A stretch of 64,000 nt of DNA from NCBI GenBank assembly GCA_020832465.1, contig JAFIER010000046.1, forward strand, positions 1 to 64,000, in the 5' to 3' direction. The DNA is from Bernardetiaceae bacterium. GTDB lineage: Bacteria > Bacteroidota > Bacteroidia > Cytophagales > Bernardetiaceae. The position numbers and the translations under genes are program-made. The notes beneath the pieces are model-generated. The model was not told where the DNA came from. It did no database searches and saw only the letters and a list, made by a program, of their open reading frames with translations. Positions 17,635 to 26,531 of the stretch are shown piece after piece (within the stretch, counting starts at the first letter, position 1; every line of letters starts with the position of its first letter).

Positions 17635-18909
17635 ATGCTCAGACGCATATTCAATTGGACGGCACTCTCGAGCATGATAGCTGTATTTACTGTTATATGG
17701 CTTATCAAAACCTTAGCTATCAATCTTGACTTTTTGAATATTATCGAAGAAGTTTTTCAAGATTTTAAAGTAACGGATTTATATTTTTCTCACATCAGAG
17801 ACAATGATGCTATAGAGAAAGATGACCGCATTGTTATAGTCAATATCGGTGAGGGTAGTAATGTAAGAGGTGATATTGCCATGCAAGTAGCACTGATTAA
17901 CGAGGGGCAGCCACGTGCTATCGGAATTGATGTACTCTTGGCAGCGCCAAAAGAAGAGATGACGGATAATATATTGGCAGAGAGCTTTGCACAAACAAAA
18001 AATCTAATCCTTGCCACAAAGCTACTTCTTGATTCTATTAAGCAGAGCAATGATAGCCTGATATGGCAAAGTGCATTGTGCCCAATCCCTGCTTTTGCTA
18101 AATCGGGTTACCTCGCTTACGTGAATTTGGTTACAGAAGACGATACCAAAGTTTTTGAAACTTCGCGCCTTATTGCAAGGCAAGAATATGTATTGGATTC
18201 GTTGATGCTGAGTTTCCCCGCTGCGCTGGCTGCTTCCTACGACTCGGCAGCAGTAAAGACTTTTTTAGATAGACAGTTGCACCGCGACCCCTTTCCTTTT
18301 AATCTTTTGCCGTTAGCAAGCCGTCAAAATCAGCTTGAGATGATTCGTTATACGCGCAATACAGATAAATATACAGTATTAGACCCAGAGTATTTTTATA
18401 GTGACGACTTTGACCCTTCTATTTTTAAAGATAAAATCGTGCTTTTAGGATTTATGGGGCATACCTATAAAGAACTCACGGGCGAAGACCGTTATTATAC
18501 ACCTATGAACGAACGTCCTATCGGACGAACCGAAGCAGATATGTACGGGGTTGTTATTCATGCAAATGTAATTTCTATGATTTTGGATAATGATTATATA
18601 GCCCCTTCTCCCAATGGTTTTTCTTGGATTATGGCAATTATCTTTGGTTATTTTAATGCAGCTCTGTTTTGTAACTGGTATTTTAGTCCAAGACTTGGCT
18701 CTTGGTACGATTTTATCAGCAAATCTTTTCAAGTCGTGGAAGTTTTGGTGTTGGCAGCTATAGGGCTTTGGGCTTTGGCTGTATATGGTGTAGTTCTTGA
18801 TTTTAGCATTGCTATGGTTGTAATTTTATTTTCAAGCGATGTACTTGAAATTTATTTAGCCTTGCTTTCGCGCTGGGTAAAATCGGCTTCGAAGCCATTT
18901 TATTCTTAA
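17635..18909 (+). CDS. CHASE2-domain membrane protein without output domain (first of pair)
   Basis: The 424-residue protein has one N-terminal TM helix (about residues 14-33), a CHASE2-type extracytoplasmic sensor region (about 34-315), and three C-terminal hydrophobic helices. CHASE2 hallmarks include DDRIVIVNIGEG, PRAIGIDVLLAAP and FKDKIVLLGFMG, followed by RYYTPMNERPIGRTEADMYG. CHASE2 proteins usually end in a kinase, cyclase or GGDEF domain; this one stops after the TM bundle (ends KSASKPFYS). It must therefore signal through a partner or have another role. The next gene is a paralogue of the same layout, 93 bases downstream, followed by a secreted FecR-like protein. Confidence 0.85.
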   Translation: MLRRIFNWTALSSMIAVFTVIWLIKTLAINLDFLNIIEEVFQDFKVTDLYFSHIRDNDAIEKDDRIVIVNIGEGSNVRGDIAMQVALINEGQPRAIGIDVLLAAPKEEMTDNILAESFAQTKNLILATKLLLDSIKQSNDSLIWQSALCPIPAFAKSGYLAYVNLVTEDDTKVFETSRLIARQEYVLDSLMLSFPAALAASYDSAAVKTFLDRQLHRDPFPFNLLPLASRQNQLEMIRYTRNTDKYTVLDPEYFYSDDFDPSIFKDKIVLLGFMGHTYKELTGEDRYYTPMNERPIGRTEADMYGVVIHANVISMILDNDYIAPSPNGFSWIMAIIFGYFNAALFCNWYFSPRLGSWYDFISKSFQVVEVLVLAAIGLWALAVYGVVLDFSIAMVVILFSSDVLEIYLALLSRWVKSASKPFYS

Positions 18910-19002
18910 AAATGCAAAGTAAGGAAGTGAAATTATCCACACTTACATAAGTAAAAAGTGTTTATTATTGGAATAATCTATCAAATGTAAGATATAACGA
19001 TT

Positions 19003-20217
19003 ATGTGGCGAAAAATTTTTAATTGGACAGTACTCTCCGGCACGCTATTCTTAATAGCGATTATATGGCTTTTGCAGATTATCACAACAAATTTGAGCTT
19101 TTTGGACGTGGTAGAGGAGGTATTATTAGATTTTCAGATTTCTGATATTTACTACTCTAAAATTAGAGATAATGCAGCCCTTGCACCCGATGATAGAATT
19201 GTAATTATCAATGTTGGTGAGAATTTCCCAGCCCACATGGCTGCACTTGCCACTTTAGAGTTGCTCAATGAAGCCTCGCCCAAAGTTATTGGTTTGAACT
19301 TAGATATTGCCAAGCCCGCGCCAGATGAGATGATAGATTCGCTACTGCGTCTTAATATTCAAAAAGCCTCTAATTTAGTGTTGAGCACTGATATTGAAAC
19401 TATTAAAAATACGAATCCAACGCAGAAAGCCACAGCACTACACTATTATAAAGACGACGCTTTTATAGGATTTAAGGATTTAGGAAGCAATGTCAAACGC
19501 AACGGATTCGAGACTTCTCGATTTTTCTCCCCTTTTATACCCATAGAAGATACGCTTATCCATAGCTTTGCTTTACAAATCACTGCTTTGTACGACAGAG
19601 AAGCAGCGCAGAATCTAAAAAAACGACATGATACCCAACAACAATCAGCTGAATTGATTAATTATCGTGGAAATTGGGACAAATTTACAGTAGTAGATTT
19701 AGATGATATGTTTCAGGATTTTGACCCAGATTTAGTGCGCAACAAAATTGTGCTTATCGGTACTATGGGGGAAAGTTTTATAGACCAAACAGGAAGCGAT
19801 AGATATTATACACCTCTTAACGATAGCCCTATAGGCAGGAATAATCCTGATATGTACGGCATAGTAGTACAAGCTAATATTATATCTATGATATTGGGTA
19901 GCAATTACTTGATAAAGGTTCCAAGCTATTTTAGCATCATTATAGCTATTTTCTTTGCTTATTTTAATGCGGCTATCTTTGCTAATTGGTATTTCAGTAG
20001 TGGGTACGGCACTTGGTATGATGTCATCACCAAAGTTTTTCAACTCATTGAGATTATCATCTTAGTATTTTTGTTATTACAAGCCTTAGAAAACTTTAAT
20101 TTGCAAATAGACTTGACTTTTGCAATTGTAGTTATTGCACTATCTGGAGATTTGTTAGAGATGTACTTTTCCTTACTCTCCAATACCGTAGAAAAATCTT
20201 CAAAATATTTTCAATAA
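19003..20217 (+). CDS. CHASE2-domain membrane protein without output domain (second of pair)
   Basis: This 404-residue paralogue of the preceding gene shares RKIFNWTVLSG at the start, PDDRIVIINVGEN, VRNKIVLIGTMGES and DRYYTPLNDSPIGRNNPDMYG, and has the same layout of one N-terminal and three C-terminal TM segments. The two sensor regions differ strongly between the shared motifs, so the duplication is old and ligands may differ. It also ends without an output domain. Two similar but diverged subunits encoded side by side suggest a heteromer; this is inference. A 204-base spacer separates it from the secreted FecR-like/TPR protein, and no terminator hairpin was seen there. Confidence 0.85.
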   Translation: MWRKIFNWTVLSGTLFLIAIIWLLQIITTNLSFLDVVEEVLLDFQISDIYYSKIRDNAALAPDDRIVIINVGENFPAHMAALATLELLNEASPKVIGLNLDIAKPAPDEMIDSLLRLNIQKASNLVLSTDIETIKNTNPTQKATALHYYKDDAFIGFKDLGSNVKRNGFETSRFFSPFIPIEDTLIHSFALQITALYDREAAQNLKKRHDTQQQSAELINYRGNWDKFTVVDLDDMFQDFDPDLVRNKIVLIGTMGESFIDQTGSDRYYTPLNDSPIGRNNPDMYGIVVQANIISMILGSNYLIKVPSYFSIIIAIFFAYFNAAIFANWYFSSGYGTWYDVITKVFQLIEIIILVFLLLQALENFNLQIDLTFAIVVIALSGDLLEMYFSLLSNTVEKSSKYFQ

Positions 20218-20421
20218 CATCAAAATACTTGTAACTTTAGTTCGAGTTATTACGTTTCATAAGCATAACAAAGTCGATAAGTTTACATTAGTAACAAAAT
20301 GTAATTTAACCCACTTATTCAGCCTCGCTCGTAAAAGCTTTACGATTACAGTAATTTTAATATCTGTTTTTTATTTTTAAGCATTCGTAATTATTTTATC
20401 AAACTCAAATCATATTGTATA

Positions 20422-21393
20422 ATGCAAACCAAACAAATTTTATTGAGCGTGCTATTCTTATTCTTAGCCGCAACCGTATCAGCGCAAGATTACGCTTTTC
20501 GCGTCCTTGCAAGTAAAGGTAGTAATAGCGCAAGCGAAGCTGCACTCCGCACGGGTAGTAAAATCGCTGCCGATGCTACTATAGAAGTTGCCGAAGGTGG
20601 ATACCTCGGACTCGTTCATGCCAATGGTAAAACCCTTGAAATCAAAGAAAAAGGTACGTACAAAGTAGCTGATTTGCAGAAAAAAGTAGGCGTAGAGGAC
20701 AAAGGACTTAGCTCTCGCTATGCTGCTTATGTATCTTCTGAAGTTATCAAAAGCGATAATGAAGGTGTAAGTGCTGAAAATCGCCATAAGCACATGGGCA
20801 AAACAGGAGCAGTAGTGCGCGCAACTGGTGAGAACGCTATCATGGGTGTCTATGAAAAAACCGAAACTCTTGTGGGCGAAAAGGTTACTATTAACTGGTT
20901 TCTCTACGAAGATATAGCCAAAGTAGAAGAAACTGAAGTAGATAACTACCGAGTTGTTATCAACGACCTCTTTGGTAATGTGCTTGTAAACAAAGAAGTA
21001 AAAAGCACAAACTATAAGCTCGATTTTGCAAGCCCTGAAATGAAAGGTAATACTGCTGTTGTGTACCGTGTATATGCTGTAAAAGAGGGCAAAGAAGTAT
21101 TTGCTTCAGACGAAAAAAGCATTAAAAGAGCAAGTAGAAGAGACATTGAAAAGTATAGCAACGAAGCAAGTGAGTTAGCTGATGCTAATACAGCACTTGG
21201 TCAAATCATACGTGCACAGTATTTTGAAGAAAAAGGATTCTATGCTGATGCTATGCAAGCCTACGAAACGGCTATTGATATGGCGCCTGGCGTAGAGGCT
21301 TACGAAGAACTCTATAACAATTTCCTCACTCGCAATTTGATGAGCAAAGATGCTATTATTGAGGAGATTCAGCGTACATCTTCAAAAGACTAA
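20422..21393 (+). CDS. Secreted FecR-like protein with C-terminal TPR-like segment
   Basis: The 323-residue product has a clear signal peptide (ending VSAQ, residue 21). Residues about 24-75 (LRTGSKIAADATIEVAEGGY, then LVHANGKTLEIKEKGTYK) resemble the FecR-like beta domain. The middle region (about 140-230) has TVNWF-like and YRVYAVKEGKEVF segments typical of a beta-sandwich. The last 70 residues contain a TPR-like helix pair (AQYFEEKGFYADAMQAYETA). FecR-domain proteins are known neighbours of CHASE2 genes in other bacteria, which supports grouping it with the two genes upstream. It would lie in the periplasm, where the CHASE2 sensor regions are. A strong terminator follows, so the cluster ends here. 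Confidence 0.72.
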   Translation: MQTKQILLSVLFLFLAATVSAQDYAFRVLASKGSNSASEAALRTGSKIAADATIEVAEGGYLGLVHANGKTLEIKEKGTYKVADLQKKVGVEDKGLSSRYAAYVSSEVIKSDNEGVSAENRHKHMGKTGAVVRATGENAIMGVYEKTETLVGEKVTINWFLYEDIAKVEETEVDNYRVVINDLFGNVLVNKEVKSTNYKLDFASPEMKGNTAVVYRVYAVKEGKEVFASDEKSIKRASRRDIEKYSNEASELADANTALGQIIRAQYFEEKGFYADAMQAYETAIDMAPGVEAYEELYNNFLTRNLMSKDAIIEEIQRTSSKD

Positions 21394-21442
21394 GAAGCAA
21401 CGCTAAAATAAATCATAGCTATATGATGGCTAAATTAAAGAG

Positions 21443-21477
21443 ACCTTGCAGAATTTTATAATTTTGCAAGGTTTTTT
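21443..21477 (+). terminator. Terminator after the CHASE2/FecR-like cluster
   Basis: ACCTTGCAGAATT pairs with AATTTTGCAAGGT (one G-T pair) and is followed by TTTTTT. It separates the cluster from mlaE. Confidence 0.85.
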
Positions 21478-21550: not shown

Positions 21551-22279
21551 ATGAAAAGTATTGGTAAGTTTGTCCTATTTATTGGTAAGATGTTCAGACA
21601 GTTTGAGTCGCCTCGTGTATATTTGCGACTTTTTATTGATGAGTGCATGCTTATTGGTATAGATTCTGTTTATCTTGTTGTCATTATCTCCTCATTTATT
21701 GGCGCGGTTACTGCTGTTCAGACGGCCTTCAACTTAGTCAGCCCGCTTATTCCTCTCTACCTTATCGGTACGATTGTTAGGGATATGACTATTTTAGAAC
21801 TTGCACCGACCATTACAGCCTTAGTTTTTGCTGGTAAAGTCGGCTCAAGTATCGCTGGTGGCTTAGGAACGATGCGCATCACCGAGCAGGTAGATGCCTT
21901 AGAAGTTATGGGAATCAATTCTGTTTCTTATTTGGTGTTGCCCAAAGTGCTCGCCGCACTTTTTACTTATCCTATGCTTGTTATATTGGCTGCATTTTTA
22001 TCAATTACGGGTGGCTATCTTGCCGGTACATTAGCAGGCTTGCTCACACCAGAGGAGTATGTATATGGTATTCGTATAGATTTCATACAGTTTAATGTGA
22101 GTTTTATGCTTATTAAAGCATTGGTATTTGCCATTTTAGTAACTACAATTTCTGCTTATAAAGGGTATTACACACGTGGAGGTGCACTTGAAGTTGGGCG
22201 TGCAAGTACGCAAGCTGTTACAAATAGCTGTATTGCTATTTTACTTGCTGATTATCTTTTAGCACAGCTTTTAGTATAA
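21551..22279 (+). CDS. mlaE: MlaE-type ABC permease for lipid transport
   Basis: The 242-residue membrane protein belongs to the MlaE/YrbE permease family, which works with an MlaF-type ATPase and an MCE (MlaD) protein to move phospholipids between membranes. It shows the family hallmarks SSFIGAVTAVQTAFNL, LAPTITALVFAGKVGSSIAG and LGTMRITEQVDALEVMGINSVSYLVLPKVLA, and five to six hydrophobic segments. The ATPase gene starts 129 bases downstream in the same direction. No MCE-domain gene follows in the window, so that partner is encoded elsewhere. ATG at 21551 gives the typical amphipathic N-terminus before the first conserved helix. Confidence 0.93.
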   Translation: MKSIGKFVLFIGKMFRQFESPRVYLRLFIDECMLIGIDSVYLVVIISSFIGAVTAVQTAFNLVSPLIPLYLIGTIVRDMTILELAPTITALVFAGKVGSSIAGGLGTMRITEQVDALEVMGINSVSYLVLPKVLAALFTYPMLVILAAFLSITGGYLAGTLAGLLTPEEYVYGIRIDFIQFNVSFMLIKALVFAILVTTISAYKGYYTRGGALEVGRASTQAVTNSCIAILLADYLLAQLLV

Positions 22280-22408
22280 CAAACAGGCAACCCATAAAAA
22301 GCGATTAAAATACCTGCTTACCTTCTATAAAGGCGGTAGGTGTGCAGTTACAAACAAAATAACATGGCTTTGAGCCATAATCAGAGTTATCTAATACATC
22401 TTAATATT

Positions 22409-23161
22409 ATGAGTATTCGTGCAGTCAATATCAAAAAATCCTTCGGAGATATCGAAGTACTAAAAGGCGTAAGTGCTGATTTTGTCGCAGGGCAAACGAA
22501 TCTTATTATTGGCTCAAGTGGTACGGGAAAAAGTGTTTTTCTCAAGTGCATTGTTGGGCTTTTTCCTATCAATGAAGGTGAAATTTTTTATGGAAAGCGA
22601 AATTTTCATCAAGTATCCCTCGACGAACAGAAAAAAATTCGTACAGAAATCGGTATGCTTTTTCAAGGAGGTGCACTCTTCGATTCAAAAACCGTCTTTG
22701 AAAATACAGCATTCCCTCTCATTATGCGTGCTAAAATGAGTAAATCTGAAATGGAAGACCGCGTTATGTTTTGTCTTAAAAGAGTAGGACTCGAAAAAGC
22801 AGCGCACAAAATGCCATCTGAAATTAGTGGGGGAATGAAAAAAAGAGTAGGTATCGCACGTGCTATCGTTATGCAACCTGATTTTCTCTTTTGCGACGAA
22901 CCCAACTCTGGACTCGACCCACAAACCGCCATTATGATTGATGAGCTTATAAGGGATATTACACACGAAAATAACATGACTACCGTCATCGTTACCCACG
23001 ACATGAACTCCGTCATGACCATCGGCGAGCACGTTATTTTTCTCGCCGATGGATATAAAGTATGGGAAGGGCAGCAGAAAGATATTCTCGATACTGATGT
23101 AAAAAAACTTAACGATTTTGTCTTTACAGGCGTAGCTATGCAAAAATACAAAAACGGTTAA
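22409..23161 (+). CDS. mlaF: MlaF-type ABC ATPase
   Basis: The 250-residue ATPase pairs with the MlaE permease upstream. Walker A is GSSGTGKSVF (near residue 37), the Q-loop follows in GMLFQGGALFDS, the ABC signature is SGGMKKRVGIARAI, Walker B is FLFCDEPNSGLDP, and the H-loop is VIVTHDMNS. The GALFDS sequence is characteristic of the MlaF subfamily. Earlier in-frame starts (22340 and 22364) add unconserved residues, so ATG at 22409 is chosen. Its stop codon overlaps that of the convergent lipoprotein gene by four bases (TTAA). Confidence 0.94.
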   Translation: MSIRAVNIKKSFGDIEVLKGVSADFVAGQTNLIIGSSGTGKSVFLKCIVGLFPINEGEIFYGKRNFHQVSLDEQKKIRTEIGMLFQGGALFDSKTVFENTAFPLIMRAKMSKSEMEDRVMFCLKRVGLEKAAHKMPSEISGGMKKRVGIARAIVMQPDFLFCDEPNSGLDPQTAIMIDELIRDITHENNMTTVIVTHDMNSVMTIGEHVIFLADGYKVWEGQQKDILDTDVKKLNDFVFTGVAMQKYKNG

Positions 23162-24896: not shown

Positions 24897-26531
24897 TCAT
24901 AACGTCAAGAAAACTTGTTTTTTGCGTTCATAGATTTTGGGTAAAGTAATGCGAAACTCACTGCCTATGTCCGGGCTGCTACTCACCTCGATAGTGCCAT
25001 TGTGTTTTTGTATAATACCGTAAGCAATCGAGAGACCCAGACCAGAGCCTTTGTCTTTTTCAGTTTCTTGCTGGCTAAAAAAAGGCTCAAATACCTTTTC
25101 TAAAACATCTGCCGTCATGCCTTTGCCATTATCTTTGATCAAAATTTCTATTTCATTGCTCATATTGCGAGTTTGAATCAGTATCTCGCCCTTATCCTTG
25201 ATGGCTTTGATAGAGTTATTTAGAATATTGACAAACACTTGATTAAGCTCGCCAGGATTACACTCAATTTTGGGTATATGATGATCATATTTTCGTTTGA
25301 TATAAATGCGGTGTTTAGTCTCTGGTGTGAGCAAAACAAGTGTAGCATCTAAGCCTTCGTGGATATTGACAAACTTTTGATGACTCTCATCAAGACGCGA
25401 AAAATGACGTAATCCTTTGATAAGTTCAATAATCCGTAAAGCACCTTTACATATATCTTCGTTGAGGTCTTTTATATCTTGCTCGAGATGCTCAAAATCA
25501 ATCTCTTCTTTATAGGCTTGGATTTCTGCTATATCTTCCGCTTCCAATACATAGGCTATGTTTTCATATTTTTCTAACAACTGAAAAACTTCACGTACAC
25601 GCTCGCTCAAAGCCCCACTTCCTGCATAGACAAAGTTAATCGGGTTATTTATCTCGTGTGCAATCCCAGCCGTAAGCTGTCCGAGAGAAGCCATTTTTTC
25701 GGATTGAATAAGCTTGACCTGTGCTGATTTAAGCTCTTTGAGTGCTATATCGAGTTGCTTACGACTCTCTTTTTCGCTTTTGAGCGAAGCCTCCGTCCGT
25801 TGCTGCGAACGTTTGAGCTTTTCATAAGAATGTGATAGCTCCTCTTGCTTCTTGGCAAGAGCTTGATTCGCTACTTCACTCTGTTCGAGTAGCATACTGA
25901 CCTCCTCCTCCGAGCGCAAATTTGCACGTTGCAAAAGCCAAAAACCATAACTGAGCATAAAACAAGCACCAATCGTAACAATATTTACTATAGAGGTATA
26001 GCCTGAAAAATGAAGCACGGCCACCTCTACACCTATACCCAAATACGTATGCAAAGGGTCAAAAAGAATTAAGCAGGCAAAATTAGCACCAATACCCAAA
26101 AATAAATGCCAGCGATTTTGTACATCTAAAATCGTAACAGGGAGAACCAAAAGACCCAGCAGGGCAATACGAGGTAGAAAATAATGCACTATCTCACGCT
26201 GCTCATAAATCAAAGTTTTAGAATAAGCCAAAGTCAATAATACCAAAAAAGGGGCAACTATACATACTGATATGCGAGAAAAATTGACAAACCCCGCTAA
26301 GTTCAATAGCAAAACAACCAAAAAATAAATCATGCCCAATCCAAAAAGGAATGCTGTTACATAAGCCTCTAATGCAAGCACAAAGAGCAGTATGACCGCT
26401 ATAGCTAAAAATACGAAGATAATACTGATTTGATTCGTAAGCAAAATGTACTTCCGCAAGCGTCTATCTGTATCAGCAGTGATACCTAAATGCGTAACAT
26501 AATCCCAAAAATCTAAAAGCTCTTGTTTCAT
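24897..26531 (-). CDS. Membrane sensor histidine kinase
   Basis: The 544-residue protein has six predicted TM segments (about residues 34-200), a coiled coil (about 205-275), then a HisKA-type dimerisation domain with the phospho-accepting His292 in QLTAGIAHEINNPINF. The ATPase domain follows with N-box-like VFVNILNNSIKAIKD, G1 IKDNGKGMTADV and G2 KGSGLGLSIAYGII. The HEINNP H-box is typical of the group of kinases that often have no adjacent regulator. No response regulator gene lies next to it, so it is an orphan here. The membrane region resembles a multi-helix sensor without a large periplasmic domain; the signal is unknown. Confidence 0.93.
   Translation of the reverse strand: MKQELLDFWDYVTHLGITADTDRRLRKYILLTNQISIIFVFLAIAVILLFVLALEAYVTAFLFGLGMIYFLVVLLLNLAGFVNFSRISVCIVAPFLVLLTLAYSKTLIYEQREIVHYFLPRIALLGLLVLPVTILDVQNRWHLFLGIGANFACLILFDPLHTYLGIGVEVAVLHFSGYTSIVNIVTIGACFMLSYGFWLLQRANLRSEEEVSMLLEQSEVANQALAKKQEELSHSYEKLKRSQQRTEASLKSEKESRKQLDIALKELKSAQVKLIQSEKMASLGQLTAGIAHEINNPINFVYAGSGALSERVREVFQLLEKYENIAYVLEAEDIAEIQAYKEEIDFEHLEQDIKDLNEDICKGALRIIELIKGLRHFSRLDESHQKFVNIHEGLDATLVLLTPETKHRIYIKRKYDHHIPKIECNPGELNQVFVNILNNSIKAIKDKGEILIQTRNMSNEIEILIKDNGKGMTADVLEKVFEPFFSQQETEKDKGSGLGLSIAYGIIQKHNGTIEVSSSPDIGSEFRITLPKIYERKKQVFLTL

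Follow-up and report, generated by a model that had tools for sequence, protein, structure and literature searches.

What is conserved at this locus is, judging by the genomes compared, a duo rather than a trio: one CHASE2 membrane protein without an output domain, and one secreted protein, which we call F. A large group of relatives of gliding bacteria has retained this module, which looks like a real cell-envelope sensing complex, and we give slightly better than even chances to the idea that it is a two-part receptor module of the cell envelope, in which the output-less CHASE2 protein and F would serve an effector acting in trans. CHASE2 is usually described as an input domain, and we know of no ligand for it. 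The locus lies in a 64,000-nucleotide stretch of DNA from a Bernardetiaceae bacterium, the whole of which we refer to as the window, and here the CHASE2 gene is present in two tandem copies.

The locus and its three products

The two CHASE2 proteins, C1 (424 amino acids; 17635..18909, + strand) and C2 (404 amino acids; 19003..20217, + strand), are tandem paralogues with 40% identity across 423 aligned columns, and theirs are the sole CHASE2 genes in a genome of 4.6 Mb. Both score far above the curated cut-off of 26.3 bits for PF05226 (94 bits and E 1.4e-26 for C1; 80.5 bits and E 1.9e-22 for C2), and a Pfam search gave no second significant domain in either. An earlier note, made from the sequence alone, had proposed two CHASE2 genes side by side without a kinase, cyclase or GGDEF domain, and the reading frames and the Pfam search bear this out; in addition, neither a histidine kinase nor a response regulator is encoded within the unit of C1, C2 and F. 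The C-terminal transmembrane bundle that it had described is likewise found in the AlphaFold2 model of C1 (pLDDT 89), which has a transmembrane helix at residues 8-28, a periplasmic alpha/beta domain and further transmembrane helices at 329-350, 355-384 and 391-423, the last of which ends at the C-terminus. Since these three C-terminal helices reach the end of the protein, C1 is predicted to have no cytoplasmic domain. The same arrangement of the bundle is part of the CHASE2 topology in Burkholderia (PMC5192318). Comparison of the C1 model with the PDB by Foldseek gave nothing significant (best E 0.2), and a PDB search by sequence found no CHASE2 relative. NCBIfam matches to ArsK and to LapA retention at the locus lay far below cut-off and were dismissed.

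The third gene encodes F (323 amino acids; 20422..21393, + strand), for which the AlphaFold2 model (pLDDT 86) predicts a signal peptide (helix 2-17, with an AxA-Q site), a FecR-like beta domain at about 26-81, an Ig-like domain at about 140-236 and TPR-type helices at 239-322, with a conserved linker motif, TGxVxR, at 128-133. The secreted nature and the TPR-type helices of this gene product, as first proposed, agree with the model, whereas the assignment to FecR has moderate profile-profile support and no Pfam match. Indeed, PF04773 (FecR) does not match F and is not listed among 37 relatives; in hhalign comparisons, F aligned with a set of short FecR proteins from this phylum, several of which are CHASE2-linked, at a probability of 76.5% and a pairwise E of 2.2e-5 over the first half of the domain only, and with other FecR sets at 14% and 31%. 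A FecR-like identity of the N-terminus is thus plausible from these profiles.

When the F model was compared with the PDB, the top Foldseek match was the C-terminal domain of MtxA (4z29; E 4.9e-7, probability 1.00). MtxA is a secreted Ig/TPR protein, and in magnetotactic bacteria the gene for a CHASE2-adenylate cyclase is the next one downstream (PMC4439547). No other single clue to function is as strong as this one, in which a fold search arrived independently at a protein with a CHASE2 link. F does not reach the cut-off of the narrow family model PF22121 (MtxA_C): among 37 partner proteins this model finds 3, all weakly (best E 0.0063), in the organism's own genome none, and in the phylum 2, again weakly. 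On its predicted fold we would therefore call F MtxA-like, similar in kind, and do not class it as MtxA. The structure of MtxA has been solved and, to our knowledge, its function is not known.

C2 and F are separated by 204 bp (20218..20421) in which F could have its own promoter, and a promoter-like match at 20396-20423 is weak evidence that it may do so. Given this gap, C1, C2 and F may or may not share one transcript; gaps of >340 bp are also present in relatives of the Bernardetia group. The terminator said to close the unit has its counterpart in a strong hairpin 3' of F (18 pairs and a T run; 21438..21477, + strand), although four such terminator-like sites are observed in the region against 2.9 expected.

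A lineage of CHASE2 proteins without output

Searched with C1, 121 of 292 sampled genomes of the same order have relatives, and among the matches listed their frames, counted from stop to stop, are no longer than 540 amino acids. Beyond the alignment column of residue 411, none of 110 output-less relatives has more than 56 residues. A tree was built from the output-less set together with 30 longer CHASE2 proteins from this phylum; the longer ones were the best-scoring matches, so that other output types may be under-represented. In this phylum sample a single branch splits output-less from output-bearing CHASE2 (SH-aLRT 100). A cyclase domain was found in all three of the longer proteins scanned. 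The output-less set includes named members of the Cytophagales, Flavobacteriales, Chitinophagales, Kapaibacteria and Ignavibacteria. A scan of contigs gave matches with an alignment as the query and none with a single protein. Fusion to an output protein in most homologues, which had been named beforehand as the result that would speak against the proposal, is not seen: within this clade none is fused.

The clade also has residues of its own, which the cyclase-fused CHASE2 proteins lack. Three of these lie in or at the transmembrane bundle (E405, 94%; Y407, 92%; F345, 86%) and three in the periplasmic domain (G297, D302 and N311); E405 and Y407 are present in C1, and the clade-invariant residues are kept in both C1 and C2. 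The clade-specific positions in the bundle argue that the bundle itself does something, and the combination of a single clade with conserved residues of its own points to a maintained lineage rather than to decay. CHASE2 without output is, on this comparative evidence, a real, widespread and stable architecture. The opposite idea, that these are receptors stripped of their output domain which persist by chance, draws on the role of CHASE2 elsewhere as an input domain, but we give it practically no credence: one clade is kept across the order and beyond, the partner is strictly co-retained and the residues are clade-specific, a pattern that refutes it.

What the clade does not support is the pair of CHASE2 genes as a conserved unit. 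C1 groups with C2 in the tree as its sister (SH-aLRT 98), and each of the family's ten other genomes has one CHASE2 copy only; the pair thus appears to have arisen by duplication within this lineage, and within the family it is seen in this genus only, which is represented by this genome alone. Tandem duplications have occurred independently at three other loci (L044, L066 and L131), and an older output-less tandem pair has been co-inherited in loci of Kapaibacteria/Ignavibacteria type (L095, L100, L111, L130 and L135), where the first copies cluster together and the second copies likewise. From these separate events and the older pair we conclude that CHASE2 duplication is recurrent. An obligate heteromer of C1 and C2 regulated by F would be compatible with our preferred receptor module, and could draw on the invariant clade residues in both paralogues and on the co-inherited pair of the Kapaibacteria and Ignavibacteria. 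We nevertheless rate it as rather improbable, because one CHASE2 suffices in every other genome of the family, so that a required heteromer is not general, and because the local origin of the pair makes it at most a local elaboration. A heteromer may exist in some lineages, but the general design does without it, and the older pair is a better place than this window for putting the question to the test.

One CHASE2 protein and one secreted partner

F does go with output-less CHASE2. F relatives are found in 125 of the 292 genomes, namely in all 121 that have CHASE2 and in 4 that have F alone, and the Fisher p-value for this co-occurrence, calculated with kinship between genomes ignored, is extreme. 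Both genes are jointly absent in parts of several families that otherwise have both. Across 101 distinct loci, CHASE2 is followed directly by F on the same strand in 81, at a median gap of 24 bp; F is one gene further on in 2, upstream and divergent in 3 and not beside CHASE2 in 11, and the remaining 4 loci are cut by the contig end. F is still retained in genomes with a CHASE2 gene that lacks F beside it (G066, G068, G147 and G008); in G066, for instance, CHASE2 lies on contig 44, while contig 45 has two copies of F. The expectation that the three genes stay together in other species therefore holds for CHASE2 with F and fails for the second CHASE2.

There is some variety around this theme. 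In Flavobacteriales-type loci (L110, L112, L117 and L132), F lies upstream of CHASE2 and divergent, not downstream. Two of the loci with the older CHASE2 pair (L130 and L135) continue with four consecutive F-type genes, which suggests that the partner diversifies too, and three genomes (G054, G136 and G165) carry 5 to 7 F matches.

Conservation among 92 F proteins is highest at positions that include G129 (98%), V131 (91%) and R133 (99%), all three of which sit in a linker that AlphaFold2 models at low confidence. Conserved residues in such a linker are as a docking motif would predict, and TGxVxR is accordingly our candidate for one, if it is not a misplaced or ill-modelled end of the FecR-like domain.

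Loci with CHASE2-cyclases of the same phylum offer a useful comparison. In four that were read (L188, L189, L191 and L193) a PF04773 FecR gene lies two genes upstream, and in a further locus (L194:6653-7327) a secreted FecR-like/TPR protein of 224 amino acids is encoded directly upstream of a CHASE2-adenylate cyclase. The N-terminal part of this protein matches the F profile. The protein is too short for an Ig domain and is possibly an evolutionary intermediate.

Several known systems resemble the module in part. MtxA of Magnetospirillum (4z29, PMC4439547) is, like F, a secreted protein with Ig-like and TPR parts whose gene adjoins CHASE2, but the CHASE2 protein next to it carries an adenylate cyclase domain and the one next to F carries none. 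The CHASE2-cyclase clusters of the Campylobacterota (PMC9239204) and the Ignavibacteria-side loci share PF05226 and secreted companions of FecR and TPR type; in those clusters, however, CHASE2 carries the cyclase, whereas here it ends after the transmembrane bundle and the partner gains an Ig-like domain. BiofilmReg of Burkholderia (PMC5192318) also combines a periplasmic FecR-domain protein with a CHASE2 receptor of the same transmembrane topology, but it adds PAS, HisKA and HATPase domains as well as a response regulator, and its partner is a LysM-FecR protein without Ig or TPR parts. In Sinorhizobium, CyaD1, CyaD2 and CyaK are three CHASE2 paralogues that respond via an envelope protein, and the FecR-domain protein SMc02177, which is dispensable for signal perception, belongs to the same cAMP regulon; there the output is cAMP from a fused cyclase, and NsrA is an outer membrane beta-barrel (PMC13001267, PMC5498481). 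That FecR-type proteins are linked to CHASE2 is thus already on record (PMC5192318, PMC9239204, PMC4439547), and output-less CHASE2 was not found in the open-licence papers searched. The suggestion that the system is undescribed therefore fits the output-less version and not the FecR-CHASE2 pairing; as far as we have searched, what is new is a long-lived CHASE2 without output together with a FecR-like/Ig/TPR partner.

What the module might do

As we picture it, an inner-membrane CHASE2 protein with four transmembrane helices and no output would pair with a periplasmic F of FecR-like, Ig-like and TPR parts. Most likely F would bind the periplasmic domain of CHASE2, possibly via the TGxVxR linker, and, by analogy with known systems, might set the state of CHASE2 in response to an envelope or surface condition, loading or gating that domain. 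Because a cytoplasmic domain is absent, the signal would have to exit via the transmembrane bundle, through which the change would travel to an effector with its gene at another site; the tandem duplication in this genome would yield two receptors for one partner. We favour this receptor module, and with it infer physical binding of CHASE2 and F, a direction of signalling and an effector in trans, because of the co-occurrence and adjacency of the genes, the MtxA-like fold, the FecR genes near CHASE2-cyclases, the clade-specific residues and the conservation of R133 and G129. Counted against it are the lack of an effector among the neighbours, the lack of correlation with cyclases and the deletion of mtxA, which gave no visible phenotype under standard conditions. 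A more specific version, with a sizeable chance that we would still put somewhat short of even, is that 'empty' CHASE2 proteins form an old class at the level of the phylum, non-catalytic by design, which would signal entirely via the bundle, with its conserved E405 and Y407, to a membrane or cytosolic effector and be gated by F.

The search for the effector bears directly on the alternatives. Beyond F, no neighbour is conserved with CHASE2 as a unit, and the other genes vary between genomes. The main rival, in which CHASE2 would anchor a secreted FecR/Ig/TPR scaffold and organise the envelope with no signal passing inwards, fits this lack of a conserved effector gene nearby, as well as the absent cytoplasmic domain and the adhesion and scaffold folds of which F is made. 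A conserved acidic residue and a tyrosine in the last transmembrane helix exceed the needs of an anchor, though, and CHASE2 with FecR/TPR companions belongs elsewhere to signalling operons, which leaves this structural role a serious contender that we hold to be unlikely. Far less can be said for a class III adenylate cyclase as the trans effector, that is for a split CHASE2-cyclase: CHASE2-cyclase fusions do exist elsewhere in the phylum and this genome has two unlinked cyclases, but PF00211 was found in 73 of the 121 CHASE2-bearing genomes and gave no match in the other 48, without association (p=0.27), so that as a general rule the idea is largely refuted and we regard it as very improbable.

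Some neighbours deserve mention in their own right. An MlaE-type permease and an ABC ATPase are encoded directly downstream in the window (21551-22279 and 22340-23161), but are not conserved next to CHASE2 elsewhere; the MlaE/MlaF link was dropped because two other CHASE2 loci with ABC genes nearby have different ABC proteins, and neither these genes nor the flanking ArgC/ArgJ genes have a conserved link to CHASE2. A membrane histidine kinase of 544 amino acids (24897-26531, - strand; HATPase_c E 5.8e-25) is encoded in the opposite orientation a few genes further downstream, with no evidence of a link to the CHASE2 unit. Upstream of 17 loci there is a gene for what looks by eye like a MeaB-like GTPase, on the opposite strand, which seems to be plain synteny. 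Near distant CHASE2/F loci we noted a prolyl-oligopeptidase family protein (L137:7156-9114) and, by eye from its SGHG motif, a caspase-like protein (L139:11159-13132); these recall the reported links of CHASE2 to caspase homologues.

If the receptor module is the right reading, its value lies in what has been kept: with the input and the secreted partner alone retained, it would isolate what CHASE2 senses and which protein receives the signal, and it suggests for MtxA a general role as a periplasmic partner of CHASE2 receptors.
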